Source of the DNA: a virus | Direction: 5' to 3' (one strand) | DNA length: 32,183 nucleotides | Virus record (IMG/VR): IMGVR_UViG_3300043436_002413 | Coordinates: 1 to 32,183 of that record | Shown: positions 176 through 28,193 of the stretch, in pieces | How positions within the stretch are numbered: the first letter of the stretch is position 1 | Layout of the letters: the number at the start of each line of letters is the position of its first letter | The notes under the pieces: model-generated | Seen by the model: the letters and a program-made list of their open reading frames with translations, nothing else | Databases searched by the model: none | What the model was told of the DNA's origin: nothing | Made by a program: the position numbers and the translations under genes

Positions 176-2760
176 TGCCAAGCGACGCAAATAAGACCCA
201 AGGCGGCGACCAAATCCGAGTTGCTCCCGTGTTCCAAGCACTTGTCACCCCGGTCGAGATGCAGAGGTCGTACTACCTCTCCGTCAACAAGATCCTTCGG
301 CAAGGCTCTCTTGCGTTCCGCAAGGATCGAAACCTTCAGAGGCAGATGCGATACGACCCCGACATCATGGGGCCGCTCGTCATGCTGCAACTCTCGGTCG
401 CGTGCGCCGAGTGGGCGGTTCAGGTTCCCGCCGACATGCAGGGCGACGAGCAGGCCACGGAGCAGGCCGCGTTCGTGGAGAAACTGCTGAAAAACACCCC
501 ACGCTTCACGGACATGATGCGCCATCTGCTCGACGCGCTCTGGTACGGGCGGTCGGCGGTCAACATGGTGTTCGGCAAGCAGGGCGAGACGATCTACATC
601 CGAGACTGGATGCCGATTCACGGCGACAGCCTGACCATGACGGAACTCGGCCAGTTGGGCCTGAAGGTCGGCCCGCGCTACTACACGCAGACCATCGGCG
701 GCGCAGCCCCGGATACGGACAAGATCAATGGCACGGTAATCGGCTGGGACTCTCGCGTTCTGCCGCTGGACGATCAGCAGCGAGCCACCATCGCGCTGCA
801 CACCTACCAGCCACAGGGCGTGGATTTCGATGATCCATACGAAGCCGAGAACGCCTACCTCGGTCGCGGCATGCGCGATCTGGTCTGGTACTACTGGTCG
901 CTGAAGCAGGCCGCGCTACAGAACTGGGCGACCTACATTGAGCGATACAGCATGGGCATCCGCGTGGGCAACTACCCCGTGGGCAACGAGGCTGCGAAGG
1001 CTGACATGGAGTCGGCCATGCAGAACCTGCTTGGCGATGTCTCGGTGCTGATTCCCAAGAACGCAGACGGCAGCGATGCAGGCTTCGGCATCGACATCAA
1101 GGAGCCGAACGGCGGCAACGCAGAAGCGTTCGCCAAGATGGTTGAGTACCTGACGGAGAACATCAAGGAAGTCATCCTTGGGCAGACTGGCACTTCGCAG
1201 GCTGTGTCGAGCGGTCTTGGCTCAAGCATCGGCGACCAGCACGCGCAGACGCTCAACCGCCAAGTCACCTACATTGCCAACGCGCTGGCCGAAACCATCA
1301 CGCGCGAAATCGTCACGCCGCTGTTCCGCATGAACTTCGGCGACGATGCCGTGCCGCCGTCCTTCTCATTCAGCGTGAGCAAGCCGAACCCGGACGAGTA
1401 CATGAAGGCGATTGAGGCGTTCACCAAGTTGGGTGGTCGCGTCAGCGAGCGCGAGGCACGCAAGGTGTTGGGCCTTGCCGAGCCAGAGGACGACGAGATG
1501 GTGCTTCAGGCTCCATCCGAGGGCGGCATGGGTGGTGGCGGCATGCCTCCGCTTGATGTCCGCCCGATGGGCGACGAGCCGGGAGACGCAGGCTTGGAGG
1601 GCGATGCAGAGCCATTCAGCAAGGATCGCTTTGCGCTTTCCGATGTTGACCTGACCCCGCCCAAGGGCGCAGCCGAGGCCGCTGCCCGTGGGCTGGAACT
1701 GCGCCGCAAGCACGGCAGGGGCGGCACGGAAGTCGGCGTGGCTCGCGCACGCGACTTGTCGAACCGCAAGACGCTTTCGCCGTCAACGGTGCGCCGCATG
1801 AACTCGTACTTCGCACGGCACGAAGTGGACAAGCAAGGCGAGGGCTGGGGCGAGGACAGCGCGGGCTACATCGCGTGGCTGCTCTGGGGCGGCGACGCGG
1901 GCAAGTCGTGGGCGAAGAAGAAGTCTGCCGAACTGGATCGCGCCGAGGGCAAGGACGAGAGCGAGAAGCGCGGCAGCAAGGATCGCTTCGACGGTGCGAA
2001 CTGTGGCATCGGCGAGGGCGGCTTCCAGCCGGGGAACAAGTGCGCCGAGGGCGGTGGTGGCGGTGGCGAGCAGCCAAAAGCAGGCGAGGGCCGCGAACGG
2101 GCCGCGCCGAGGAAGGAACGCCGACGCGACCGGATCGAAGGCACGGACGAGGAAGTGAAGGATGAGATTCGCAAGTCCGAGCGACAAGTGAAGCGCATCC
2201 GAGCCAAGATTGCGGAGATCAATGACAAGTGGGAGCAGGCGCAAAAGCCCATTCCCGCAGATCAATGGAAAAAGATGGTTGATGCGGAAGTGCAGAAGCG
2301 CATGAGCGAACGCGCGAAGGAAATCACCGCAGACATCATCGCTAGAGGCCAAAAGGAACGCGACGCATCTGCGAAGGAGAGAACTGAATCTTTCCTGCGA
2401 GAAGCCGCAGCAAGGGCAAAGGCATCCGAAGAGCGCATTGCAGCATCGCAGAAGAAGGTCGATGAAATCTCCGACAACCTGCGCCAAATGATCCTTGCCT
2501 ACCGGAAGAAGTGGGGCAGAGATTGGAAGCCGAAGAAAGCCGCAGAACTTGGACTGCCTCCCTTCAAGGAAGAGAACTCCAAGCGACGCATGATGTTTGA
2601 CATGGCCGAGCAGAAGATGCGAGCCAAGATTTCCGCGATGTTCAATCGGTATTCAGCGCAGAGTTCTTCTATGTCAAATGCCATGAATGATCTTGATGAG
2701 GCCGAAGCAACCCTTGAGGCCATCGGCGCAATCTTGACCGTGGCTAGCCGCCGCAAGTGA
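172..2760 (+). CDS. Portal protein (DUF935/Mu gp29-like) with long C-terminal extension
   Basis: About 862 residues from ATG 172, which overlaps the terminase stop; a GTG at 148 is in frame but lies inside the terminase gene, and ATG 175 is equally possible. Residues 15-470 look like a DUF935-type portal: RYDPDIMGPLVMLQLS, then DALWYGRSAVNMVF, then a long helical stem (IKEVILGQTGTSQAV). Portals form the dodecameric ring through which DNA enters and leaves the head. Residues 483-606 hold a separate domain (LTPPKGAAEAAARGLELRRKHGRGG ending WGGDAGKSWAKKK in pieces), flanked on both sides by SKDRF. After the second SKDRF comes a CGIGEGGFQPGNKC segment, a Gly-rich linker and about 200 residues of charged coiled coil. 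Ordinary portals of this family are near 450-550 residues, so the extension is unusual; it could be cleaved off or sit inside the head. Confidence 0.88.
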   Translation: MMPSDANKTQGGDQIRVAPVFQALVTPVEMQRSYYLSVNKILRQGSLAFRKDRNLQRQMRYDPDIMGPLVMLQLSVACAEWAVQVPADMQGDEQATEQAAFVEKLLKNTPRFTDMMRHLLDALWYGRSAVNMVFGKQGETIYIRDWMPIHGDSLTMTELGQLGLKVGPRYYTQTIGGAAPDTDKINGTVIGWDSRVLPLDDQQRATIALHTYQPQGVDFDDPYEAENAYLGRGMRDLVWYYWSLKQAALQNWATYIERYSMGIRVGNYPVGNEAAKADMESAMQNLLGDVSVLIPKNADGSDAGFGIDIKEPNGGNAEAFAKMVEYLTENIKEVILGQTGTSQAVSSGLGSSIGDQHAQTLNRQVTYIANALAETITREIVTPLFRMNFGDDAVPPSFSFSVSKPNPDEYMKAIEAFTKLGGRVSEREARKVLGLAEPEDDEMVLQAPSEGGMGGGGMPPLDVRPMGDEPGDAGLEGDAEPFSKDRFALSDVDLTPPKGAAEAAARGLELRRKHGRGGTEVGVARARDLSNRKTLSPSTVRRMNSYFARHEVDKQGEGWGEDSAGYIAWLLWGGDAGKSWAKKKSAELDRAEGKDESEKRGSKDRFDGANCGIGEGGFQPGNKCAEGGGGGGEQPKAGEGRERAAPRKERRRDRIEGTDEEVKDEIRKSERQVKRIRAKIAEINDKWEQAQKPIPADQWKKMVDAEVQKRMSERAKEITADIIARGQKERDASAKERTESFLREAAARAKASEERIAASQKKVDEISDNLRQMILAYRKKWGRDWKPKKAAELGLPPFKEENSKRRMMFDMAEQKMRAKISAMFNRYSAQSSSMSNAMNDLDEAEATLEAIGAILTVASRRK

Positions 2761-3809
2761 CGGAGTTTGAGCGCATCTACAGGCGCGGACTCGCCGATGT
2801 CCGGCGGTGGTATCTCGCGGCCCTAGCCGCGCAGGTACGCGACGAGCCAGAGGATGCCGCCGAAGCGTGGGAGCGGTACGGCGAGGTTCTAGGGCAGGTG
2901 ATGACCCTAACGGCCCTAGCGGGCGCGGCGCAGGCCCACGCGGCCACCAAGGAGCAGGGAGCCGATTGGGAGGCCGGAGAATGGCCGGAGGAGCGTCCGG
3001 ACACCTTTGCGGCTGCGGAGGCGGGCTTCGGCCCCGGCGCGTACTGGAAGGCCATCCAAGCCTTTAGGAACCGAACTCCACTTGCATGGACGGAGATTCT
3101 GCGAATCAAAGCGGAAATGCGATCTATTGCAAACCGCGTAGCAATCACCGAGAACAAGCGGGCATTGAAAGACATGGCAACGCGCTTGGATGCGTTGAAA
3201 GCCGTTCTCTCCGGCGCATTCAAAATCAAGGGTGCAACCTATCAGCAAGTGCAGCGCATCCGTGACTTGATCGCGCAAAGCATGGTGAACCAGTCCATCC
3301 CGAAGGGGCTGAAGACCGGGAGCCTCTCGGCATTCATCCGGCGGGCGCAAGTCGAGGGCATCATCGGCATGACCTCCGCGCGGCTGGAGACGGTCTACCG
3401 CACGAACACGGCCACGGCCTACAACGAAGCGACCGCAGAAACGATGGACAGCCCAGCGGTTGCGCGATGGGCTCCGCTGGTGCGTCTAGTCGAGATTCAC
3501 GACAGCCGGACGCGCGGCGCACCCGGCGGCGTGTACCGTCCCAAGGGCAAGACCAAGAACCCCGGATCGCATTGGCAGATGGATGGCTACATAGCCACGG
3601 CTGCTGACATGCGCTCGCAGGGGCTTGTGCCGCCGAACGGCTTCAACTGTCGAGGCTCGCTAGAGCCTGTGACCTTTGACGAGGCCAAGGACATGGGATT
3701 CATCCGCAAGGACGAAACTCTAGATCGTGCTGCGTTGGCACGGTATAACGCAATCCGGCAACGCATCATCGACAGAGGCGACTACCCTGACCCCGGATTC
3801 AAACGATGA
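2757..3809 (+). CDS. MuF/SPP1 gp7-like minor head protein
   Basis: 350 residues, GTG start at 2757 inside the portal stop (GTGA). The C-terminal half carries the MuF signature: ARLETVYRTNTATAYNEA, then VRLVEIHDSRTR, and finally the PPNGFNCRGS end that is nearly invariant in the family. MuF proteins bind the portal, are packaged in the prohead and in some phages travel with the DNA. The N-terminal half (to about residue 190) is helical. The usual H...DG pair in the middle reads HWQMDG here. Gene order portal, MuF, protease, capsid is the Mu/SPP1 order. The stretch around 3070-3300 uses more A/T-ending codons than its flanks. Confidence 0.88.
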   Translation: MTEFERIYRRGLADVRRWYLAALAAQVRDEPEDAAEAWERYGEVLGQVMTLTALAGAAQAHAATKEQGADWEAGEWPEERPDTFAAAEAGFGPGAYWKAIQAFRNRTPLAWTEILRIKAEMRSIANRVAITENKRALKDMATRLDALKAVLSGAFKIKGATYQQVQRIRDLIAQSMVNQSIPKGLKTGSLSAFIRRAQVEGIIGMTSARLETVYRTNTATAYNEATAETMDSPAVARWAPLVRLVEIHDSRTRGAPGGVYRPKGKTKNPGSHWQMDGYIATAADMRSQGLVPPNGFNCRGSLEPVTFDEAKDMGFIRKDETLDRAALARYNAIRQRIIDRGDYPDPGFKR

Positions 3810-18918: not shown

Positions 18919-20283
18919 ATGCCTAGCCAACTTCCAGACTTCGGTGCGCGCCTCGGATCGCTGTTCGGATATGCGAACAATGTCTATACCGTCACGCAGC
19001 CGCTGTGGGACATCGGAAACAACATTGATACGGTCTTGTCGTTGTACGAAGGCACGCAGTTCCGTCAGGACACGGCAAACCTCGCGCCGTTGACAAACTA
19101 TTCGACTGGCCTTTCTTCCACGCTCGGCGTGCCCGTGTACGCGGCGATTCAACAGAGCATCACGGCCACGATCATCAACGACATGCGCGACCTCTATGGC
19201 GCATACGACGGCACGCTAGCGACGGCTCTCCGCAAGTTGCGCGACCAGATGATTTCGGAGTCCTACAAGTTTGAGGCTGTCGGTACGAGCAGCGTTACCT
19301 ACACCGCGACGAGCGGCAATCAAGGCACGGGCACGGTTCTGGTTCGCGCCTACCGTCCGGCCTCATCTAGCCTGTACTTGCAGGAGATGTACAACGAAAC
19401 CATCCGCATGAACTGCACGGTGGGCGGCGACATCGGCAACTTCGGCGAGGCCACCTTTGCCTTCACAGGATTTGCGTCCTACGCAGCGAACAACATCGCG
19501 TGGCCGGGTGGCTCGGGCCTGAACACCACGGTGCAGGCGACGAGCGCGAGCATTACGGCTAGCGTCGGCGCACCCGGCGTGAGCATCCTTGCCAACGGCG
19601 ACTTTGAGAGTTGGAGCAGCAACACGCCGCGTGCGTGGACGATTGTGACGGGATCGGCTGGTACGCAGGTGACGCAGGGCAGCACGCCATGCCGTGGAAC
19701 CTACGCGCTCCAGTTCGTCGGCAACGGCTCGACTCTCACGCGCATTCGGCAGCAGATTGCGTCCGGCTCCGGCGCACCTACGAGCGTGCAGGCCGAGACT
19801 GATTACGCGCTCACCTTCTACGCTCGCGTGGCTGCATCGACTACCGGAACGGTCGGCGTTGCGCTGCGTGATGCGTCGGGCACGGTGGTCGGAACTGCGA
19901 TCACCTTGAACCTCGCTAGCCTGACCACGACCTACGCCCTGCAAAGCGTCACCTTCAGCATCGCCAAGTCTGCGCTGCCGACCACGCTGTACCTCGACAT
20001 CTACAGCACCACGGCCATCGCATCTAGCGGCACGCTGATGATTGATGAACTAGTGCTGGCCCCCATGACCCGGCTCTATGCGGCTGGCCCTTCCGTCCTC
20101 ATCACCTGTGGCACGACCGATTGGGCGGCGGGCGACTCGGGAACCATCGCGGCTGTGAGCGATCCAAGCACGACGGGCTTGTTTATGAAGGGCTTCGCAC
20201 GGTGGGTGGGTGCAGAGCGTCAAGGCATCTACCTGCCGCTGACCGGAACCAACACGCTCGCCGACACGCTAGTGACCGTCTAA
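18919..20283 (+). CDS. Structural protein with CBM4/9-like domain (paralogue 2)
   Basis: 454 residues. Same order as the protein at 10563-11843: helical N-terminus, beta domain (NETIRMNCTVGGD, IAWPGGSG), CBM4/9-like jelly roll beginning ILANGDFESWSSNTPRAWTI and ending LMIDELVLAP, then a C-terminal beta region (TTDWAAGDSGTIAAVSDP, QGIYLPLTG). Matching signposts in the two proteins show common descent, although overall identity looks modest. As the last gene of the tail operon it is a good candidate for a receptor-binding or fibre protein. Its stop overlaps the stop of the convergent gene on the other strand by four bases. Confidence 0.62.
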   Translation: MPSQLPDFGARLGSLFGYANNVYTVTQPLWDIGNNIDTVLSLYEGTQFRQDTANLAPLTNYSTGLSSTLGVPVYAAIQQSITATIINDMRDLYGAYDGTLATALRKLRDQMISESYKFEAVGTSSVTYTATSGNQGTGTVLVRAYRPASSSLYLQEMYNETIRMNCTVGGDIGNFGEATFAFTGFASYAANNIAWPGGSGLNTTVQATSASITASVGAPGVSILANGDFESWSSNTPRAWTIVTGSAGTQVTQGSTPCRGTYALQFVGNGSTLTRIRQQIASGSGAPTSVQAETDYALTFYARVAASTTGTVGVALRDASGTVVGTAITLNLASLTTTYALQSVTFSIAKSALPTTLYLDIYSTTAIASSGTLMIDELVLAPMTRLYAAGPSVLITCGTTDWAAGDSGTIAAVSDPSTTGLFMKGFARWVGAERQGIYLPLTGTNTLADTLVTV

Positions 20284-20567
20284 CGCATCGGACGGCGTGC
20301 GCGGCGATCTTTGCGCTGCCCGTGCATCGGGTCGATTGCCGTGCCTCTCCGTGGCCGGAGCGCGTGCCGGATGTTCAGGATGTTGCGTATCTCATCCCCG
20401 AACAGGCAGTCGCCAAACTTGGTCAGGTCGAGCATGGTGCGGAGCGATTCGCTAGCGGCCTCGACATCCCCGGCGAGTCCGTGCGCGTTCATGTCGCGCA
20501 GAGTGTCCGCTACATCGCGCAGCATGTCTGTGATTGATGGTGGGCGTGGTGGTGGCTTCCTTGCCAT
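20280..20567 (-). CDS. Hypothetical basic protein
   Basis: 95 residues from ATG 20567. Starts MARKPPPRPP, continues with two helices (ITDMLRDVADTLRDMNA, DVEAASESLRTMLDLTKF) and ends in a strongly basic tail (KDRRARRPMR). It lies beyond the leftward terminator at 20618-20581 and has no clear ribosome site, so its expression is unclear. Function unknown; the helical middle looks like a real protein, but the gene call is moderate. Confidence 0.5.
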   Translation of the reverse strand: MARKPPPRPPSITDMLRDVADTLRDMNAHGLAGDVEAASESLRTMLDLTKFGDCLFGDEIRNILNIRHALRPRRGTAIDPMHGQRKDRRARRPMR

Positions 20568-20580
20568 GCGGGAAGCGTAC

Positions 20581-20618
20581 AAAGAAAAGCCCCCGTCGCA
20601 CGGAAGTACGACGAGGGC
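20581..20618 (-). terminator. Rho-independent terminator of the leftward operon
   Basis: Read on the minus strand: a ten-base-pair stem with one mismatch (20618-20609 with 20598-20589), ten-base loop, then TTTTCTTT (20588-20581). It lies about 60 bases after the stop of the 166-residue membrane gene and is the clearest intrinsic terminator in the window. Confidence 0.85.
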
Positions 20619-20679
20619 GAGACACCCGCATGCGCGGTGTAGTGATGGGGGCGACCGCGCAGCAGAATGATTGTAGCGG

Positions 20680-21180
20680 CTAGCGGTGCGAGTCCGCGCC
20701 GAATACATCGTAGATCGACGCATCGGCTGACCAGCGGTTTACCCAGTCGCCGCGCTTGCCTAGCCAGTACTCGTTGCCGTCGCCGTCGATTCGGGCGACG
20801 GCGTACAGCAGTTCGCCGTCTGGCGTGCAGCCCCGGTCGCGGATATCGCATTCAAGTTCGATGGAGTGCGTGATAATCGGCCCCCACGGGGACTTGCTGG
20901 CGGCCACCTCGTGCTTCAGGCTCTCAAGCGTCTGCACATACAGCGTGTGAACCCGTCCAATCTCGCCATGCCCGTGCATAATCCAAGCAATGTGCGTGGC
21001 ATCGCGTGGGAGTCGATTGGAGTGCCACGGGATCGGTGCTTCCTGCGAGGTATTGTGCATCGGATCACCCGGCAGCACGATCCGCATCTCTGGGATACGG
21101 CCTCGCGTCAGCAAGATGTACACCACGGCTCCGGCCATAATCAGCGAGCAGACGGCCACGATTTGCATTGGTTCAATCAT
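20680..21180 (-). CDS. Hypothetical protein with N-terminal membrane helix
   Basis: 166 residues, start eight bases inside the upstream gene. Residues 5-25 (MQIVAVCSLIMAGAVVYILL) form one membrane helix, with a positive residue pair after it, so the remaining 140 residues should face the cytoplasm or the periplasm depending on orientation. The soluble part has no recognised motif (WIMHGHGEIGRVHTLYVQTL, RIDGDGNEYWLG). It is the last gene before the leftward terminator. Function unknown. Confidence 0.65.
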   Translation of the reverse strand: MIEPMQIVAVCSLIMAGAVVYILLTRGRIPEMRIVLPGDPMHNTSQEAPIPWHSNRLPRDATHIAWIMHGHGEIGRVHTLYVQTLESLKHEVAASKSPWGPIITHSIELECDIRDRGCTPDGELLYAVARIDGDGNEYWLGKRGDWVNRWSADASIYDVFGADSHR

Positions 21181-21508
21181 TGGTGACTCCTAGACGGGCC
21201 TCGACGGCAAGCAGCAGTTCACGCGCCTGCCGTAGCCATTCCTCGCTAGTGCCGTTTGGCGTGCCGCCGTTGGCGACGGCATCCCCATCGGCCTGCGCCT
21301 GCATGCGGATCACATTGGCACGCAGGACAGGCAGCGTCCGGGCGAGGATGCGGGTCTGAATCTCTTCCTCGTCGGCTGCATTCGCTACGGCCTCGCGAAG
21401 CGCACCTAGCGCGTTGCAGTTGACTGGCTGCGTAGCGGCTGGGCTACAACAGGCTGCGACCTGCGGGATCGTGGATAGGATGTCGGCAGCGGTCTGAATG
21501 GGAGTCAT
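21173..21508 (-). CDS. Hypothetical small helical protein
   Basis: 111 residues, ATGA overlap with the 39-residue gene upstream. Mostly helical: ALREAVANAADEEEIQTRIL, ARTLPVLRANVIRMQAQ and SEEWLRQARELLLAVEARL, with two adjacent cysteines near residue 20. Looks like a small soluble helical-bundle protein. No family recognised; part of the leftward operon of small phage-specific genes. Confidence 0.6.
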   Translation of the reverse strand: MTPIQTAADILSTIPQVAACCSPAATQPVNCNALGALREAVANAADEEEIQTRILARTLPVLRANVIRMQAQADGDAVANGGTPNGTSEEWLRQARELLLAVEARLGVTND

Positions 21509-21624
21509 GGGATGAACTCCAAGAGTACTCCGTTAGCCCAAGTTCCCGCGAGGAACGCGGCGACGGACAGGGAGCCGAACGCAAACCCCAGCCAGAAGTC
21601 AAGGTAGGACTCGCTGCGCTTCAT
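21505..21624 (-). CDS. 39-residue membrane protein
   Basis: Short gene MKRSESYL ... EFIP with one hydrophobic helix over residues 10-28 (FWLGFAFGSLSVAAFLAGT), positive N-terminus. Both ends overlap neighbours by ATGA, the normal spacing of this operon, which supports it as a real gene despite its size. The topology rule suggests the N-terminus is cytoplasmic. It could be an inner-membrane effector against the host or a superinfection factor; nothing in the sequence decides this. Too short to be a classical holin. Confidence 0.65.
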   Translation of the reverse strand: MKRSESYLDFWLGFAFGSLSVAAFLAGTWANGVLLEFIP

Positions 21625-21821
21625 TCGCGGCCTCCCGCCGGGTACAGGTCGGCGAACATCTCCGTAATGTGGTCAGTCGCGCTTCGCAGTCGGCGCGAGT
21701 CGGTGAGCGCGTCGAGGATGCGCTCGGCGTGCAAACTGTCTTGGCCGCGCTCGTTCATCACCGTCAAGCGCAGGCGTGTCTCCAAAAACTTCGCTTCATC
21801 TTCGGTCAGGTGCAGTCTCAT
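21621..21821 (-). CDS. Hypothetical 66-residue protein
   Basis: Ribosome site GGAG in the leader AGGAGACACCCC just before ATG 21821. Helical throughout (LTEDEAKFLETRLRLTVMNE, HAERILDALTDSRRL, ATDHITEMFADLYP), charged and soluble. The leader matches the GAGACACCC box seen before several early genes on both strands. No family recognised; possibly a small protein-binding factor. Confidence 0.6.
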   Translation of the reverse strand: MRLHLTEDEAKFLETRLRLTVMNERGQDSLHAERILDALTDSRRLRSATDHITEMFADLYPAGGRE

Positions 21822-21831
21822 GGGGTGTCTC

Positions 21832-22245
21832 CTAGTTCAGTCTCTTGCGCTCGGCGGCAGGCAACGCGCCCACCGCATCATCGAACGCTGTCCAGTCGCC
21901 CGATGCTCGCGCAGCAATCGCTGCACGAATCGCGGCTCGTAGTCCATCGGCTCGCCCTGTCCGTGGACTTGAAAACAGAGTCCCGGGTTCTGTGTAGATG
22001 TAGACGGCTGCCGCGCTGCCCGTTCCGGTCGTCCGGCGGCGGTCGGTTCGCAGGAGCCAGCCCTTGCGCTCTAGCGTGGTGAACGCCGGGGAAGCAGACT
22101 GGTGCTGCATCCCAAGCGTGCGGATGGCCTCGTCGCAGGTAGCCCCGTGGCTGCCCGAGGATTTCACGAACGACAGAACGCGCTCCTCGTTCTCGCCGAT
22201 CTGCGCGGTCGCGTAGGCGGCTCGGCTGGTGTCGCGGTAGGTCAT
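21832..22245 (-). CDS. Winged-helix DNA-binding protein
   Basis: 137 residues, ribosome site GGGAGGAG upstream of ATG 22245. Residues 15-85 have the winged-helix pattern seen in small phage proteins: GENEERVLSFVKSSGSHGAT, CDEAIRTLGMQHQSASPAFT, then LERKGWLLRTDRRRTTGTG with a final AVYIY wing strand. The C-terminal 50 residues are helical and Ala/Arg-rich. Such proteins probably bind DNA as regulators or as modifiers of host transcription. Its place in the leftward early operon would suit a regulator of the divergent promoters, but that is inference. Confidence 0.68.
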   Translation of the reverse strand: MTYRDTSRAAYATAQIGENEERVLSFVKSSGSHGATCDEAIRTLGMQHQSASPAFTTLERKGWLLRTDRRRTTGTGSAAAVYIYTEPGTLFSSPRTGRADGLRAAIRAAIAARASGDWTAFDDAVGALPAAERKRLN

Positions 22246-22379
22246 GGCTCCTCCCGTGGGAATGCGTCAGGCTCCGGTTCGTCTAGCGGCTCTGGCTCGC
22301 CGTCCACCTCTTCAGGCTCCGGCGCGGGCCGATCATCAAACCAGTCATCGTGATTGAATCCAGCCGGGTAATTGCTCAT
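22242..22379 (-). CDS. 45-residue acidic protein
   Basis: MSNYPAGFNHDDWFDDRP followed by a Pro/Glu/Asp-rich tail with repeated PEPEE, EPEP and DEPEPD. Strong ribosome site AAAGGAG in front of ATG 22379, and ATGA overlaps at both ends. Small, highly acidic early phage proteins are often inhibitors or DNA mimics, but nothing here proves it. Too short to appear in usual gene-length cut-offs. Confidence 0.65.
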   Translation of the reverse strand: MSNYPAGFNHDDWFDDRPAPEPEEVDGEPEPLDEPEPDAFPREEP

Positions 22380-22579
22380 CGGTTCTCCTTTCGGTCATAG
22401 CCGTAGACGGTCAACGCCTCGCGTAGTTTCAGCAGCAACTTCTGCTCGGCGTGCCGGAGTTGATGCGATGTCATGCCCAACGCCTTCGCGGCTTCTAGAT
22501 GCGAGCGGATCGGGGTGAAGCCGCACAACGGCTTGCGGTCGCCCGTTCCCGGCACGCTCGGCTTGCGGTCACACCGCAT
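22376..22579 (-). CDS. Sigma-region-4-like helix-turn-helix protein
   Basis: 67 residues from ATG 22579, overlapping the upstream gene by 11 bases. Residues 30-57 (HLEAAKALGMTSHQLRHAEQ then KLLLKLREAL) follow the sigma70 region 4.2 pattern (LG-S/T--RVRQIE--AL-KLR), where the second helix reads the -35 box. The protein has none of the other sigma regions, and its N-terminus is a short basic stretch with two cysteines. It could redirect the host polymerase or block region 4; a simple DNA-binding role is also possible. An in-frame upstream ATG (22636) lies deep in the previous gene and is less likely. Confidence 0.6.
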   Translation of the reverse strand: MRCDRKPSVPGTGDRKPLCGFTPIRSHLEAAKALGMTSHQLRHAEQKLLLKLREALTVYGYDRKENR

Positions 22580-22904
22580 GAGCGACCTCCACTTCCACAT
22601 TGGCGCACAGGCGCAGCAGGTGCGACTCCGCTTCAATCCACGCGCTATGGGCGCGGTCTAGCGCGGCCTCGGCCTGAAGTTCCGGCATGCCGTCGCCTGC
22701 GCGGTTGAACTCGGCTCGCCGCTGCTCAAGGATGCGGCAGGCTGCGAGGTACACATGCACGGCTTCCAGTTGCGCGGGGCCGACCCCGGCGCGGCTCTGG
22801 ATCGCCTCCGCGCATTGGCGCATGCGCTGATCCTCTGTCGGCCCGTTGAGCCGGGTGTGATGGTTGATGATCTCTTCCACCGTGGCCTTGATCGTGTTCT
22901 TCAT
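22569..22904 (-). CDS. Hypothetical helical protein (MKNT leader type)
   Basis: 111 residues. Start ATG 22904 was chosen because it follows GAGGAG in a leader that is repeated exactly before the next upstream gene; the longer reading frame to 22961 crosses that leader. Helical and charged (TVEEIINHHTRLNG, LEAVHVYLAACRILEQRRAE, ALDRAHSAWIEAESHLLRLC). No family recognised. It begins MKNT, as does the neighbouring protein, but the two differ after that point. Confidence 0.62.
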   Translation of the reverse strand: MKNTIKATVEEIINHHTRLNGPTEDQRMRQCAEAIQSRAGVGPAQLEAVHVYLAACRILEQRRAEFNRAGDGMPELQAEAALDRAHSAWIEAESHLLRLCANVEVEVAHAV

Positions 22905-22918
22905 CGTGTGTCTCCTCG
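22892..22918. repeat. 27-base leader repeat, copy 1 (copy 2 at 23112-23138)
   Basis: An exact 27-base direct repeat covers the ribosome site, the start codon and the first codons (MKNT) of the two first genes of the leftward operon. The genes differ afterwards. This looks like duplication or recombination at a gene boundary. Confidence 0.9.
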
Positions 22919-22926
22919 TTTTGGAG

Positions 22927-23124
22927 TTAGAAGTTGTCTCGCTGGAACTGACGACCATCAAGCAGCGTGACGGTCAATTCCGCAAGCACTCCACGCGCAG
23001 TCAAAACATTCAAAGCGGCACGAAGCGCATCATTCAAAGCGGCGTTCAATGCAGTTGCGCGTGCTTCGGCTGCTGCTTCGTTCGCAGCCTGATCGACGGT
23101 CAATTCGGTGTTCGTGTTCTTCAT
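22927..23124 (-). CDS. Hypothetical Ala-rich protein, first gene of the leftward operon
   Basis: 65 residues from ATG 23124, preceded by GAGGAGACACACG. An Ala-rich amphipathic helix (QAANEAAAEARATALNAALN) is followed by LRAALNVLTARGVLAELTVTL and DGRQFQRDNF. It is the first gene after the leftward promoter, so probably the most expressed of the operon. Function unknown. Confidence 0.6.
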   Translation of the reverse strand: MKNTNTELTVDQAANEAAAEARATALNAALNDALRAALNVLTARGVLAELTVTLLDGRQFQRDNF

Positions 23125-23158
23125 CGTGTGTCTCCTCGGCCAGTCCGGGCCGCGCGGT

Positions 23159-23175
23159 GTGGTCGCCCCGACCAC
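23159..23175 (-). promoter_or_regulatory. 5' leader hairpin with GGGGC loop (leftward transcript)
   Basis: Read leftward: GTGGTC, loop GGGGC, GACCAC, a perfect six-base-pair stem beginning six bases after the -10 box, so at or next to the expected transcription start. The loop is the same as in the two rightward leaders (23352-23370 and 24141-24157), while the stems differ. Confidence 0.7.
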
Positions 23176-23181
23176 GCCCAC

Positions 23182-23209
23182 ATCCTACCCCATCCCGGCC
23201 CAATGTCAA
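23182..23209 (-). promoter_or_regulatory. Leftward early promoter
   Basis: On the minus strand TTGACA (23209-23204), 16 bases, TAGGAT (23187-23182). The -35 box is perfect and the -10 box matches four of six. It is the only good promoter before the leftward operon and has the same 16-base spacer as the rightward promoters. Confidence 0.75.
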
Positions 23210-23218
23210 GCCCCTATA

Positions 23219-23251
23219 GGAACATTTCCGAAAGATTTGTGAAATAGTACC
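23219..23251. promoter_or_regulatory. Operator-like inverted repeat between divergent promoters
   Basis: GGAACATTTCC (23219-23229) faces GTGAAATAGTACC (23239-23251); read as arms these are GGAAC-ATTTC-C and GGTACTATTTCAC, an imperfect inverted repeat around a nine-base centre. It begins 10 bases upstream of the leftward -35 box. The palindromic CTATATAG lies nearby at about 23263-23270. A regulator could act here on both operons. Confidence 0.45.
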
Positions 23252-23284
23252 GGCGCATCTATCTATATAGTAGACGGCAACCCT

Positions 23285-23304
23285 GTAGAAATATCTGAAG
23301 AAAT
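23285..23304 (+). promoter_or_regulatory. Shared upstream element, copy 1
   Basis: GTAGAAATATCTGAAGAAAT, repeated exactly at 24071-24090. In both places 13 bases separate it from the -35 box. A/T-rich with A-tract character: an UP element or an activator site. Confidence 0.75.
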
Positions 23305-23317
23305 ACTGTCAAAGGGC

Positions 23318-23345
23318 TTGACAGCCTGCCGATATGTGGTACAGT
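23318..23345 (+). promoter_or_regulatory. Rightward early promoter 1
   Basis: TTGACA (23318-23323), 16 bases, TACAGT (23340-23345). The same boxes and spacer recur at 24104-24131. It should drive the zinc-finger gene and what follows. Confidence 0.8.
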
Positions 23346-23351
23346 TCACCT

Positions 23352-23370
23352 GTCAGCCGGGGCGGCTGAC
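23352..23370 (+). promoter_or_regulatory. 5' leader hairpin with GGGGC loop (promoter 1)
   Basis: GTCAGCC, loop GGGGC, GGCTGAC: seven base pairs starting six bases after the -10 box. It is followed directly by the GAGACACCC box and the ribosome site GAAAGGA. Compared with the copy at 24141-24157, T-A at 23353/23369 is C-G there, so pairing is kept while the bases change. Confidence 0.75.
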
Positions 23371-23397
23371 GAGACACCCAAACGAAAGGACACCACA

Positions 23398-23700
23398 ATG
23401 TGCAACAGCAACAACAACCGATTCCGCAGCACCCGTAACGGCTCGACCTACACCTGCGAATGCTGCGGCAAGCGCACTCGCGAGAGCGGCAACGACGAGT
23501 CGAGCCTTGGAATGTGCCTTGCCTGCAATCTGGAAGGCGAGATTCAGAACATGATGTCCGACCACGGCCACAATTTCACCAAGGAGCAGGCCGATGCGTT
23601 TCAGGATCGACTGACAGCAGCAAACGCAAACACCGCCGAGGCAAACACCAAGTCGATCCGAAAGATTCACGAAGAAGTTATGGCAATTGCCTACGCCTAA
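23398..23700 (+). CDS. Small zinc-finger protein
   Basis: 100 residues; ribosome site AAAGGA about ten bases upstream. A four-Cys zinc site is formed by C20/C23 (TCECCGKRTRE) and C40/C43 (MCLACNLEGE), followed by SDHGHNFTKEQADAF and a helical C-terminus. This CGKRTRET-type zinc ribbon with a following SDHG segment is a pattern I know from many small phage and plasmid proteins; its biochemical role is not known to me. As the first gene of the rightward early operon it may adapt host functions. Confidence 0.68.
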   Translation: MCNSNNNRFRSTRNGSTYTCECCGKRTRESGNDESSLGMCLACNLEGEIQNMMSDHGHNFTKEQADAFQDRLTAANANTAEANTKSIRKIHEEVMAIAYA

Positions 23701-23723
23701 ACCTCGCAGAAAGGAACACGACC

Positions 23724-24026
23724 ATGAAGCAGATCAAGTCTGAAACCTACGAACGCAGCCTGCGCGACGACACCACGGGCAAGGAGTTCAGGGTTGACAT
23801 CATCAAGACCCTTGAAGAAGGCGACGAGCCGACTGAAGGCTGGCGTGAGACTCACACGATCTATGGCAACCTGACGGAGATGATCCGCGAGGACATTATG
23901 AATGCGCTCGCCCGACAGGAGCGCAGTTCCCAGTACGGTGGGCAGCGATATGTGAGCGCACCCCGCATCCTGACCTGCAACCCGATCACAACGATCATGG
24001 TGCAGAGCGGCGGTCTGGATATCTGA
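23724..24026 (+). CDS. Hypothetical early protein
   Basis: 100 residues from ATG 23724, ribosome site AAAGGAA. Charged first half with strands (KEFRVDIIKTLEEGDEPTEG, RETHTIYGNL), a helix (MIREDIMNALARQER) and a final strand TTIMVQSGG. No family recognised. The longer reading frame upstream overlaps the zinc-finger gene and is not the real start. The gene ends just before a 3' hairpin that is repeated after the gene at 24188-24562. Confidence 0.62.
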   Translation: MKQIKSETYERSLRDDTTGKEFRVDIIKTLEEGDEPTEGWRETHTIYGNLTEMIREDIMNALARQERSSQYGGQRYVSAPRILTCNPITTIMVQSGGLDI

Positions 24027-24040
24027 ACGGATCAAGGCTC

Positions 24041-24058
24041 GCCACCTCACGGGGTGGC
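24041..24058 (+). other. 3' hairpin of early cassette 1
   Basis: GCCACC (24041-24046) pairs with GGTGGC (24053-24058). The surrounding CAAGGCTCGCCACC ... GGGGTGGCCTGCCCTG is repeated after the gene at 24188-24562. No T tract follows, so it is more likely an RNA-stability or processing element than a terminator. Confidence 0.6.
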
Positions 24059-24070
24059 CTGCCCTGACCC

Positions 24071-24090
24071 GTAGAAATATCTGAAGAAAT
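24071..24090 (+). promoter_or_regulatory. Shared upstream element, copy 2
   Basis: Exact copy of 23285-23304, again 13 bases before the -35 box. Confidence 0.75.
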
Positions 24091-24103
24091 CTAGAAGAAC
24101 CCC

Positions 24104-24131
24104 TTGACATGGGGCCGATGTGTGCTACAGT
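24104..24131 (+). promoter_or_regulatory. Rightward early promoter 2
   Basis: TTGACA (24104-24109), 16 bases, TACAGT (24126-24131), identical in boxes and spacing to promoter 1. It lies between two genes on the same strand and so makes the next gene a separate transcription unit. Confidence 0.8.
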
Positions 24132-24140
24132 ACGCATGTG

Positions 24141-24157
24141 CCAGCCGGGGCGGCTGG
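24141..24157 (+). promoter_or_regulatory. 5' leader hairpin with GGGGC loop (promoter 2)
   Basis: CCAGCC, loop GGGGC, GGCTGG: six base pairs starting nine bases after the -10 box, followed by ACGAGACACCC and the ribosome site GAAAGGAA, as in promoter 1. Confidence 0.72.
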
Positions 24158-24187
24158 ACGAGACACCCAACCGAAAGGAAATTGACC

Positions 24188-24562
24188 ATGCTTCAGAAGA
24201 TCGAACCAAAGACGGCAATCGTGTGTGCTGGAATCGACGGTGCAAATGCTTTGGGCGCAGCGTTGATTCAGCAGTTGGATGGAATCGACCTGTTCTTCTT
24301 GGATGGAGATATCAAGATTTCGGATCGCATTCGCAAGTCCCTGAAGGCGGTGGATCGCGCATGGACTAGCGGCGCAATCACAGAGTCTTGCTGGTCTGCT
24401 CTCGACGCGCTTCTGCGCGACCTTCAGACTTGGACGGTCAAGGAGTGGGATGCGCGGACTAGGTGGTGGTTCGATGACGCAGCCAACCACAGGACGCAGA
24501 TGCAAAGCATCGTTGATTCAATCGGCCTCACTATCAAGAGCGGAAACGCGGTTCAAGTCTGA
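24188..24562 (+). CDS. Hypothetical early protein of cassette 2
   Basis: 124 residues from ATG 24188 (ribosome site AAAGGAAA). Begins with a small alpha/beta-like part (TAIVCAGIDGANALGAALIQ, IDLFFLDGDIKISDR), then helices with several Trp residues (RAWTSGAITESCWSALDALL, DLQTWTVKEWDARTRWWFDD). No family recognised. The reading frame upstream runs through the promoter and is not coding. Having its own promoter, leader and 3' hairpin, it behaves as a one-gene cassette. Confidence 0.62.
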   Translation: MLQKIEPKTAIVCAGIDGANALGAALIQQLDGIDLFFLDGDIKISDRIRKSLKAVDRAWTSGAITESCWSALDALLRDLQTWTVKEWDARTRWWFDDAANHRTQMQSIVDSIGLTIKSGNAVQV

Positions 24563-24576
24563 ACGGCGCAAGGCTC

Positions 24577-24594
24577 GCCACCCTCCGGGGTGGC
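24577..24594 (+). other. 3' hairpin of early cassette 2
   Basis: GCCACCC (24577-24583), loop TCCG, GGGTGGC (24588-24594): seven base pairs. Sequence around it matches 24036-24066. No T tract follows, and the ERF gene starts 36 bases later. Confidence 0.65.
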
Positions 24595-24629
24595 CTGCCC
24601 TGCTCCGTGCAGGAGAAACGAGACACCCC

Positions 24630-25523
24630 ATGACAGACATCAAGACACTCGCCAGCGCGTTGCTGGCGGCACAGAAAGCCCTGCCGAGCGTCGGCAAGGA
24701 TGCGAAGAACTCATTTCACCACTACTCGTATGTGAGCGCGGAAGCGATGATCGGCGCGTGCCGAGACGCGCTCCACGGCGCGAACCTGACCGTGCGCCGG
24801 GCTGGCTGGAAGTTTGACGGATCGCCGGAGGGCGGCATCGTGAACAGCACCTTCGTCCTCACCCACGGCCCAACGGGAGAATCCGTCAGCGACGAGATCG
24901 CGTGGATCTGCGTCCCCGAGAAGGGTCGCCCGATTGACAAGGCGATGGCTGGCGCGTTGACCAGTTCGCTTGGCTACTACCTCCGCGACCTCCTGCTGGT
25001 TCCCCGCGAGGACGAGAGCGAGATGGATCGCCGCGATGACACCAAGTACGAGCCGCGCAAGGGAGCAGCCCCGGCCCCGGCGCGTCCGGCCCCGCGTCTG
25101 GCGCAGCAGGATGCCCCACAAGCCGCCCCGGCTCCAAAGGCTACCCCGACCCCACCCAAGGCCAAGGAACCCGCCACGGCGGCTCCTAGCGCGTTTGGCG
25201 AGGTGCTGGCTTCCCGGCCCGCCAAGGATTGTGTGTGGCACGATGGTCTGACCGTCAAGCGCGTTGGACAGGGCAAGCCCACGGCCAAGGGCAGCATGCG
25301 CTACCCCATCCTGCTGGAAGTTGGCGGGTCGGAGCAATGGGCATCGTGCTTCGATGACAAGGTGATGCAGGCGGCACAGGATGCGATGGGCGGGCAGATC
25401 GTTGCGGGCTTCGTGCAGGAGGGCCAGTACGGATGGACTCTCTACGGAATCCGCACCACGCTAGAATCCGCCGAGCAGCAGGCCGCGCCCGTCGCGGTCG
25501 AGGCCGACGAGATCCCGTTCTGA
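24630..25523 (+). CDS. ERF-family ssDNA annealing protein with C-terminal OB-like domain and SSB-type tip
   Basis: 297 residues from ATG 24630 in the leader GAGACACCCC. Residues 5-150 follow the ERF pattern: ALLAAQKALPSVGKDAKNSF, YVSAEAMIGACRDAL, then KAMAGALTSSLGYYLRDLLL. ERF proteins anneal single strands in phage recombination. A Pro/Ala-rich linker (residues 160-200) leads to a beta-rich part (VWHDGLTVKRVGQGKP, RYPILLEVGGSEQWASC, WTLYGIRTT) that could be an OB fold. The last residues, ADEIPF, resemble the acidic DDIPF tip by which bacterial SSB proteins recruit partners. The protein may thus combine annealing with SSB-type recruitment. Confidence 0.78.
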   Translation: MTDIKTLASALLAAQKALPSVGKDAKNSFHHYSYVSAEAMIGACRDALHGANLTVRRAGWKFDGSPEGGIVNSTFVLTHGPTGESVSDEIAWICVPEKGRPIDKAMAGALTSSLGYYLRDLLLVPREDESEMDRRDDTKYEPRKGAAPAPARPAPRLAQQDAPQAAPAPKATPTPPKAKEPATAAPSAFGEVLASRPAKDCVWHDGLTVKRVGQGKPTAKGSMRYPILLEVGGSEQWASCFDDKVMQAAQDAMGGQIVAGFVQEGQYGWTLYGIRTTLESAEQQAAPVAVEADEIPF

Positions 25524-25533
25524 TCCCCCGGAA

Positions 25534-25565
25534 GGCTCCGGCGTTGACGAAAGTCCGCCGGGGCT
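25534..25565 (+). terminator. Hairpin terminator after the ERF gene
   Basis: GGCTCCGGCG (25534-25543) pairs with CGCCGGGGCT (25556-25565), ten pairs including two G-T, 12-base loop, then ATTTC. It ends in the same CTATTTC as the terminator after the capsid gene. Probably partial, since no strong promoter is seen before the next gene. Confidence 0.7.
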
Positions 25566-25592
25566 ATTTCACCCCATACCCAAGGAGACAAC

Positions 25593-26931: not shown

Positions 26932-27744
26932 ATGATTCTACAACCCGAACGGAGCGAGGGCGCACCGCTTGCGTTCCTGAAGTTCTACGGCAGCGACTTC
27001 CTAAACGCAACTGCCGCATGGACGATGGAGGAGCGCGGCGTGTACATCACGCTGCTCTGGTACTCGTGGGTGAACGGCGGGTTGCCCGGAGAGATCGAAC
27101 GCATTGACCGCATGGCTCCCGGCGCGAAGGCTTGCTGGTCGGTTCTGGATTCCAAGTTTCCCATCAGCCCGGACGGCATGCGCCGCAACGCACGACAGGA
27201 GCGCGACCGCGAAGCGATGCGAGCCAAGAGCCTGTCAGCAGCCGAGCGCGGCAAGCGAGGAGCGGAGCAGCGATGGGGTAGCCATAGCAACGGAATGGCT
27301 ATAGCCATCCAGCAGTCATCGCTAAACGATGGCAACGGTATGGCGAGTCAGAGATCAGAGTTCAGAGATCAGAGTTCAGAGTTCAGAGATCAAACACCAG
27401 AACAAACAAATACGCTCAACGGCGTTGCCGTAGAGCCTGTTTCATCCGTAAATGATCCGAAGGCGAACCGACGAGCCACGATCCCACAGGCCGCGCTAGA
27501 CGCGCTCTGGCAGCGGTTCCCGCGCAAGGTGGGCAGGAAGAAGGCCATGACCCTGCTGGACAGGGCCGTGCGCGAGGTGATGGAGGACTTTGAGCATGAC
27601 GAGCCGACCGATGCCCTGATCTGGATGGAGGAGCGGATCGACGCGCTCGCCAAGCAGCACAAGACGACTGACCCGAAGTTTGTACCGCACCCGGCGACTT
27701 GGCTCGGCCAAGGCCGCTACCTTGACCCCGTGGAGACACCATGA
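26932..27744 (+). CDS. Replication protein (DUF1376 N-terminus, initiator-like C-terminus)
   Basis: 270 residues. Residues 12-60 are DUF1376: LAFLKFYGSDFLNATAAWTM, EERGVYITLLWYSWVNGG. The C-terminus (190-265) carries FPRKVGRKKAMTLLDRAV, DALIWMEERIDALA, DPKFVPHPATWLGQGRYLD, the segment shared by phage replication initiators that precede helicase loaders. Between them lies a low-complexity linker (SEFRDQSSEFRDQ) encoded by a tandem heptamer repeat. As with gene O of lambda, an initiator with repeats inside its gene suggests the origin is here. A ribosome site GAGAGG lies about seven bases upstream. The following gene, in ATGA overlap, is a candidate loader. Confidence 0.78.
   Translation: MILQPERSEGAPLAFLKFYGSDFLNATAAWTMEERGVYITLLWYSWVNGGLPGEIERIDRMAPGAKACWSVLDSKFPISPDGMRRNARQERDREAMRAKSLSAAERGKRGAEQRWGSHSNGMAIAIQQSSLNDGNGMASQRSEFRDQSSEFRDQTPEQTNTLNGVAVEPVSSVNDPKANRRATIPQAALDALWQRFPRKVGRKKAMTLLDRAVREVMEDFEHDEPTDALIWMEERIDALAKQHKTTDPKFVPHPATWLGQGRYLDPVETP
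27349..27390 (+). repeat. Tandem heptamer CAGAGWT x6, putative origin iterons
   Basis: Six uninterrupted copies of CAGAG(A/T)T in the order A, T, A, T, T, A, followed by an A-rich stretch (27391-27412). The layout of iterons next to an A/T-rich region within an initiator gene recalls the lambda origin. Slippage of a simple repeat in a disordered linker is the alternative. Confidence 0.6.
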
Positions 27745-28193
27745 GAACCGAAACCGCAGCGACGATCCTTGAACACTTCGGAGGCAGCACATGGGCCAAG
27801 CCGGACTCCAAGCGGCACGCCGAAGCCGCCAAGGTGCTGGACGAGTTCAGCCACGAGGACATCGTGCAGGCGTGCAAGACGATGCGCCTGACACTCTCGC
27901 GCTCCAGCGTCAAGCCGGAGGAACTGGCCGGGGAGATCCGGCGCAACACCAAGCGGGCCAAGGTTCACTCACAGGCGTGGAAGGACGGCATCAACCCGGA
28001 CGAGATCGAACGCGAGCGCAAGCAGGCACGCAACGCCGTACTCCTCGCGCCGCGCGAAGTCATAGCAGCAGCCGTCTCACGATGCCGGAAGGTAGGTGCG
28101 CTCGACGGCACGCCGCTGTCGCCGAAAATTGAGGAGTGGAGCGCGTACACGGTCGGAATGGTTTATGCAGCGATTGAGGAGGCACACGGATGA
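27741..28193 (+). CDS. Hypothetical replication-operon protein
   Basis: 150 residues, ATGA overlap with the replication gene. Helical: TAATILEHFGGSTWAKPDSK, HAEAAKVLDEFSHEDIVQAC, then a basic middle (RRNTKRAKVHSQAW) and NAVLLAPREVIAAAVSRCR. The position just after an initiator suggests a helicase loader or accessory factor, but there is no Walker motif, so it is not a DnaC-type ATPase. No family recognised. Confidence 0.58.
   Translation: MRTETAATILEHFGGSTWAKPDSKRHAEAAKVLDEFSHEDIVQACKTMRLTLSRSSVKPEELAGEIRRNTKRAKVHSQAWKDGINPDEIERERKQARNAVLLAPREVIAAAVSRCRKVGALDGTPLSPKIEEWSAYTVGMVYAAIEEAHG

Follow-up and report, generated by a model that had tools for sequence, protein, structure and literature searches.

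Why does a phage keep copies of one promoter and leader in front of early genes that are unrelated to each other? The question arises from the early region of a virus record that was analysed over its whole length of 32,183 bases, here called the window. The record carries Mu-like portal and head genes together with ERF, Gp157-like and primosome-like proteins, and it represents a freshwater-type phage whose exchangeable early genes lie behind copies of one promoter and leader. Neither DNA searches nor protein searches with ERF, capsid, Mu-F-like head protein and a 95-aa protein introduced below matched any isolated phage record. The relatives compared here are IMG/VR contigs, which may be incomplete; contigs and not loci were counted, with several locus identifiers denoting one contig twice. 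The answer that we favour, and hold to be moderately probable, is a phage-encoded small RNA (sRNA) that acts in trans, probably as a repressor of early translation, and that recognises a tag carried along by the exchangeable cassettes.

The repeated promoter and leader

A first-pass annotation had described two tandem units, A and B, each consisting of a 20-mer, 13 nt, TTGACA, 16 nt, TACAGT, a 5' hairpin and GAGACACCC, and this repeated architecture was borne out at both sites. The 20-mer is found exactly at 23285-23304 and 24071-24090 and at no other site of the window with up to three mismatches, at a chance expectation of 0 (100 shuffles). Unit A contains two genes and unit B one, and blastp of the coding parts agreed with the annotation that the genes of the two units are mutually unrelated. 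The features are:

23285-23304, plus strand: 20-mer of unit A, an A-tract element approximately 48-67 nt upstream of the predicted start site
23318-23345, plus strand: promoter of unit A, TTGACA (23318), 16 nt, TACAGT (23340), kept in relatives
23353-23369, plus strand: 5' leader hairpin of unit A, TCAGCC-GGGGC-GGCTGA, with stem covariation across leaders
23371-23379, plus strand: tag GAGACACCC of unit A, complementary to the linker of the candidate sRNA (10 bp including the preceding C)
23398-23700, plus strand: first gene of unit A (orf100a), 100 aa, Cys-rich (CxxC), no family
23724-24026, plus strand: second gene of unit A (orf100b), 100 aa, homologues in L008, L014 and L076
24036-24063, plus strand: hairpin closing unit A, no U-run, within a 53-bp direct repeat shared with the pre-ERF hairpin
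24071-24090, plus strand: 20-mer of unit B
24104-24131, plus strand: promoter of unit B, TTGACA (24104), 16 nt, TACAGT (24126)
24141-24157, plus strand: 5' leader hairpin of unit B, CCAGCC-GGGGC-GGCTGG, from folding and stem covariation
24160-24168, plus strand: tag GAGACACCC of unit B
24188-24562, plus strand: gene of unit B (orf124), 124 aa, no family, missing in L008
24572-24599, plus strand: pre-ERF hairpin, position kept in relatives, no U-run
24620-24628, plus strand: tag GAGACACCC at the ERF translation start
24630-25523, plus strand: ERF single-strand annealing protein, the fixed gene downstream of the exchangeable slot

Judged solely by its position and A-tracts, the 20-mer may act as an UP-element. 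The leader hairpins gave a covariation of 0.775 compared to 0.230 in shuffles (0/500 reach 0.775) with 100% paired cells, computed on a nearly ungapped alignment, and their loop GGGGC is kept while the stem sequence varies. The tag of units A and B occupies positions 19-27 nt before the start codon, and a separate Shine-Dalgarno sequence (SD, AAAGGA) follows it. The proposal that the units close with terminators did not hold; the hairpins at 24036-24063 and 24572-24599 were not called by the terminator scan and are not canonical terminators, because they have no U-run. Both unit promoters (23318-23345 and 24104-24131) also contain a CCGATA-like motif between -35 and -10, which is likewise present in relatives, including those of clade 2 (clades are listed below).

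A sigma-70 promoter scan of 20500-24700 returned three sites only, each with 10/12 matches and a 16-nt spacer. The third promoter, overlooked by the first-pass annotation, is divergent and lies on the minus strand (TTGACA at 23209, TAGGAT ending at 23182); the hairpin-leader design is common to three early leaders, not two. Also missed were copies of GAGACAC(C) that stand apart from any hairpin-promoter unit, at 24620 and 27733 on the plus strand and at 23134, 22914 and 21831 on the minus strand. Besides the ERF tag listed above, these features are:

23159-23209, minus strand: divergent promoter and 5' hairpin GTGGTC-GGGGC-GACCAC (23175-23159)
23128-23134, minus strand: tag GAGACAC in the ribosome-binding site (RBS) of the first leftward gene (23124-22927)
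22908-22914, minus strand: tag GAGACAC in the RBS of the second leftward gene (22904-22569)
21823-21831, minus strand: tag GAGACACCC in the RBS of the leftward gene 21821-21621
27733-27740, plus strand: tag GAGACACC at the start of the gene 27741-28193

Overall, GAGACACC was counted 8 times in the window at an expectation of approximately 1.6, mostly at early gene starts and on both strands. It is also found once at 20619 inside an intergenic element, where the minus strand reads GGTGTCTC.

Gene exchange upstream of ERF

In approximately 13 relatives the gene order is promoter, 5' hairpin, tag, gene(s), hairpin, tag and ERF. Across these phages the slot between leader and ERF holds about nine unrelated gene families or is empty:

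L008: orf100a and orf100b (unit A only)
L007: 128 aa
L009/L010: 104 aa, DUF2958
L011/L017: 75 aa
L012: 91 aa
L014: 98 aa (orf98), homologue of orf100b
L015: 128 aa, different from that of L007
L016: 108 aa
L018: 73 aa
L033 and the L029/L030 group: empty, promoter directly before ERF

A family search of the cargo proteins gave nothing above the cut-off except DUF2958, and offers no backing for the role in host takeover that the first-pass annotation had suggested. Among the relatives compared, two full units are present only in the window and in IMGVR_UViG_3300044641_003169. The comparison with L008 is the most direct one: 23121-24074 of the window aligns at 96% and 24558-25570 at 87%, and 53 bp of L008, comprising the hairpin, are matched twice in the window. 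Compared to L008, the window carries a 536-bp insertion with unit B (24075-24610, plus strand), and the 53-bp direct repeats lie at 24022-24074 and 24558-24610. Similarly, L076 has a second cargo ORF between two copies of a 140-nt segment made of hairpin, RBS and ERF start. By their sequences, the repeats of the unit B insertion and the duplication in L076 are read as recombination footprints at conserved borders. The interchangeability claimed for the cassettes is upheld by the unrelated or missing slot genes and by the clean 536-bp insertion. A single conserved operon without exchange was looked for and is not what the relatives have, because their slot genes differ and recombination footprints are present.

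Following the 20-mer itself through the relatives succeeded in part: at this locus, only the two nearest IMG/VR contigs have exact copies. It is the least conserved part of the unit, and hairpin and tag are present in all clade 1 relatives. Exact 20-mer matches in L003 and L006 were set aside as unrelated AT-rich DNA.

Morons and early cargo cassettes are known in temperate and lytic phages. The units resemble them as self-contained promoter-gene units between conserved genes that are exchanged among relatives, and unit B is indeed inserted between genes that are adjacent in L008. However, of an own promoter and terminator only the promoter was found, and the closing hairpin was not called as a terminator. 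In contrast to morons, the window units have no canonical terminator, their promoter and leader are those that the phage also uses for its own early operons, and they bear the sRNA tag.

Several further observations were made in the relatives. In L007, L011 and L017 the rightward promoter differs (TTGCGC...TAGAGT) and is followed by the same hairpin and tag; TGAATATGCAAGCCTGTATTCA, which precedes it, is a possible operator. In L055 of clade 2 (2185-3261, minus strand) the first rightward early gene belongs to the RecT family, not ERF, yet the tag of its clade is present; here the recombinase was swapped and the leader design stayed. The primosome-like gene of the window contains 14-bp direct repeats (TCAGAGATCAGAGT) at 27348-27396. 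Concerning the host, a search of bacterial genomes found none carrying the 95-aa protein, and ERF was found in one 3.9-kb contig of a Nitrospiraceae metagenome-assembled genome (MAG) and in no other of 296 genomes in the phylum. This contig, OMJK01000026.1 with 3,910 bases, is L076, a relative of the early region of the window, and the same MAG has a capsid-gene fragment on another contig. Nitrospiraceae are thereby hinted at as host, too weakly to name one.

A candidate small RNA and its match to the tag

The intergenic copy at 20619 belongs to an element with the following features and neighbours:

20585-20675, minus strand: candidate sRNA, intergenic, with a -10 hexamer TACAAT at 20675-20670
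20663-20628, minus strand: stem-loop 1 with CGCCCC loop
20627-20619, minus strand: unpaired linker GGGUGUCUC, complementary to the tag
20618-20589, minus strand: terminator with a 13-bp stem and TTTTCTTT, then a U-rich tail
20280-20567, minus strand: p95, conserved 95-aa protein directly downstream of the terminator, anchor for distant clades
20680-21180, minus strand: p166, conserved 166-aa protein upstream of the sRNA, second anchor

The element folds as a stem-loop, a 9-nt unpaired linker and a terminator (fold z = -4.4), and its terminator is the best in the region according to the terminator scan. It lies approximately 2.7 kb from the repeated leader tag of the units. In every relative examined that reaches the region the element is upstream of the p95 gene, and in all clades except clade 2 it is located between p166 and p95. 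A -10-like hexamer precedes it in most clades and a T-rich terminator follows; the -35 region of the predicted promoter is poor in clade 1. In clade 1 the sequences of stem 1 differ among phages and pairing is always kept, with double-sided changes at 7/7 positions; as the arms were aligned by hand, the 56/56 paired cells are partly given by construction, which is not true for the double-sided changes. An Rfam cmscan of the whole window gave no match at E <= 1, including c4-type RNA, and within a partial coverage of the literature the candidate small RNA looks not to have been described before.

For p95 we found no family, no RNA-binding family and no fold match, and its predicted structure (pLDDT 78, pTM 0.53) had no match in the PDB; L074 and L075 turned out to be false matches of the search with this protein. 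In the window (20567-20585, minus strand) and in relatives, the stretch before the p95 gene is without an SD, and in most clades a -10-like hexamer (TACGCT, TATGAT, TACCCT) precedes the ATG by 6-8 nt. The missing SD and the close hexamer suggest that the p95 mRNA is leaderless.

Evidence for a function of the linker in pairing comes from phages in which the position of the element is kept and the seed is different. Such clades were gathered via the anchors p95, ERF and p166:

Clade 1 (window, L007-L017, L049-L051): seed GGTGTCTC, early RBS GAGACACC
Clade 2 (L052, L054, L055, L064, L065-L071): seed CCTAGTGG with pairing part CCTAGT, early RBS ACTAGG at 13/13 starts
Clade 3 (L029, L030, L053, L058-L060): seed TGGTCTCC with pairing part GGTCTCC, early RBS GGAGAC or GGAGAT
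Clade 4 (L097-L101): seed TGTTCTCC, early RBS GGAGAACA on both strands
Clade 5 (L092): seed GTGTCTCT, early RBS AGAGACAC

When 12-nt seeds were compared with 35-nt start regions, the true assignment of seeds to RBSs was the best of the 120 clade permutations, both by duplex energy and by the longest perfect helix. With so few clades, 1 in 120 is the floor of this test, and the targets were already known when the seeds of clades 4 and 5 were delimited. The clade 4 seed, picked after seeing its target, sits in loop and stem rather than in the linker. None of 2000 sets of shuffled seeds reached the true assignment. Moreover, the k-mer shared most widely among early RBSs has its complement in the linker, both in clade 1 (an 8-mer, reached by 1/20000 random linkers) and in clade 2 (a 6-mer, 31/20000), and cofolding complete RNAs with complete leaders gave block-diagonal binding by clade for clades 1-3. 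Compared to shuffled linkers, the duplex energy was significant in most clade 1 phages, in 1/3 clade 2 phages and, taken singly, in no clade 3 phage. Hence, the argument rests on the joint test over five clades. Pairing is weak in clade 3 (6 bp) and modest by energy in clade 2, and the ninth tag base in L014 and L017 does not co-vary with the linker. An exact CCACTAGG in clade 2 leaders, which had been predicted first, failed; the motif shared there is ACTAGG, with 6 bp and a wobble extension.

Every clade 1 genome has 4-8 copies of GAGACACC; 0 were found in the three clade 2 genomes searched. In the window, a perfect helix of at least 7 nt is predicted at seven starts (23398, 24188, 24630 and 27741 on the plus strand; 21821, 22904 and 23124 on the minus strand), and all of these early starts carry the tag, which was found at 0/18 late starts tested. 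The predicted targets are on both strands, 1.2 to 7 kb from the element. It must be mentioned that complementarity at SD sites is partly unspecific, because any anti-SD matches any SD. The accessible and co-varying seed that is generally expected of a trans-acting sRNA was found, the clade 1 seed being unpaired and the co-variation spanning five clades (1/120).

Much of this could be read in a simpler way, namely as an ordinary early promoter with a stabilising 5' hairpin and a favourable RBS context (GGAGACACC) that were copied by recombination. In that case the 20.6-kb element would do no more than terminate the leftward operon, and would match the tag by coincidence. Phage early regions commonly share promoters and leaders, the leftward operon should close with a terminator and the one in the element is the best of the region, and some early RBSs of clade 2 contain GGAGACAC, which is unmatched by the clade 2 RNA. 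However, the element has far more structure than a terminator and covaries in its first stem, its seed and the early RBS change jointly in five clades, and the shared tag reaches past the SD and is absent from late genes, all of which makes this explanation unlikely. The match between tag and candidate sRNA, which the first-pass annotation had not noticed, gives a more specific reason for the repetition of the leader.

At the level of sequence, the comparison gives an exchangeable slot, a conserved leader, a conserved structured intergenic element and co-varying complementarity. From these we infer a separate transcript of the element, its pairing inside the cell and a resulting drop in translation. 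Units A and B are cassettes in an exchangeable slot between the divergent early promoter region and ERF, and the comparison shows that cassettes are gained and swapped by recombination in conserved leader and hairpin sequences. Their leader consists of the promoter, the 5' hairpin and the 9-nt tag, which would be the pairing target of an sRNA of about 80 nt; complementarity, structure and co-variation point to its synthesis leftward from 20675-20585 and to its action in trans. The unpaired linker is predicted to pair over 7-10 bp with the tags of units A and B, ERF, the leftward early genes and the gene at 27741. At ERF and the leftward genes, where the tag is on or right beside the SD, pairing would most likely stop translation and perhaps expose the mRNA to decay in the course of infection. 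In the cofold prediction, the duplex formed by the linker is stacked immediately on the leader hairpin and on the RNA's own stems, which would explain the position of the hairpin beside the tag. Any cargo gene entering behind the leader would fall under control of the same RNA.

We favour repression, since the pairing in every clade falls on or right beside an SD, either that of the genes opening the early operons or that of ERF. Simple SD occlusion is inapplicable to units A and B, because their tag lies upstream and the separate SD downstream, and in these leaders the effect of pairing could be on decay or stability. The same arrangement would also suit an sRNA that pairs with the tags but activates, either protecting early mRNAs of the cassettes from decay or opening the RBS: the tag of units A and B is immediately next to the 5' hairpin, so that pairing would extend the 5' structure. 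We consider activation quite improbable, because the bases that pair at ERF, in front of the leftward genes and also in clades 2, 4 and 5 adjoin or overlap the SD itself. It is very unlikely that leader hairpin and tag instead serve as a binding site for an RNA-binding protein of the phage, or as a put/nut-like antitermination site acting on RNA polymerase, with the 20.6-kb RNA as decoy or another copy. In favour of such a site, the leader hairpin begins at the predicted transcription start like the hairpin of HK022 put sites, its GGGGC loop is conserved on a variable stem, the unit-closing hairpins are intercistronic, and p95, encoded beside the RNA, is basic at its C-terminus. Against it, p95 matched no RNA-binding family or fold, leader stems vary freely in sequence, and what the RNA carries is the tag's reverse complement rather than another tag.

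The favoured pairing between sRNA and tag could include a second contact. Leader-hairpin loops are GGGGC or GGGC in clades 1 and 2, in which the first loop of the sRNA is CGCCC(CC), and clade 3 has neither. A kissing contact between leader loop and sRNA loop is therefore possible from the sequences, and it would be limited to the loops because of the parallel order along the molecules.

Known systems and biological meaning

Small phage antisense RNAs such as c4 (P1/P7), sar (P22) and OOP (lambda) block translation at or near the RBS (PMC12197685). The window RNA resembles c4 in its complementarity, found in silico, to the RBS region of phage mRNAs. However, c4, sar and OOP act on one phage mRNA each (ant, cII), whereas the window RNA is predicted to reach at least seven early starts including exchangeable cargo; c4 is encoded next to its single target, and those predicted for the window RNA are spread over both strands at distances of 1.2 to 7 kb. 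c4 displays its complementary sequences in loops and accounts for the heteroimmunity of P1 and P7 (PMC12197685). Of the other phage sRNAs, PreS is described as acting on a host mRNA, and VpdS on RNAs of both host and phage (PMC12197685). Like these and the multi-target bacterial sRNAs, the candidate is a short RNA with a terminator and a short seed for several mRNAs; in contrast to PreS and VpdS, it is predicted to act on early genes of its own phage that bear matching copies of a repeated tag. The put sites of HK022 differ in having two hairpins at the start of the early transcript and no phage factor, compared to one stable hairpin in leaders A and B.

Another likeness is found in the Cluster K mycobacteriophages, in which a short SD-containing sequence (SAS/ESAS) is repeated at the starts of many non-structural genes, often after an inverted repeat, and K1 phages have one copy on the opposite strand (PMC3203893). 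The role of SAS was still termed ill-defined in 2024 (PMC11373665). The tag is likewise located at early gene starts, but SAS is the 13-bp GGGATAGGAGCCC with no regulator known, the tag has a different sequence, and Cluster K phages and the window phage are unrelated at the DNA level, with no phage record matched. In Adephagia (JF704105, L102:38695, record position approximately 58694) the opposite-strand SAS corresponds to a 10-nt apical loop CCTCCTATCC on the plus strand, complementary to SAS and carried by a long intergenic hairpin between genes 92 and 93. The loop is retained in Anaya, Niklas and Amelie, Ekdilam has a normal SAS but CCTCCTTCC in place of CCTCCTATCC, and no match to CCTCCTATCC was found in Phrank, Yuna, Pixie and SirPhilip. 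An antisense RNA for SAS in subcluster K1 is thus possible, and this mixed result is a lead rather than support.

Phage antisense RNAs are mostly known as one RNA directed against one switch gene. As a tentative wider idea, the early region could be a plug-in regulon, in which one sRNA with two contacts (CGCCCC loop with GGGGCG leader loop, linker with tag) would control all early mRNAs and domesticate foreign genes that arrive with the leader. Seed and all tags would have been switched together several times, resulting in incompatible dialects, and other start-associated repeats such as the Cluster K SAS may work alike. The clade-specific pairs of seed and tag are ready orthogonal pairs for reporter tests. 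If the idea is true, start-site tags of other phages would permit the prediction of a matching antisense RNA, and the portable tag would show how phages swap early genes without rewiring their regulation.
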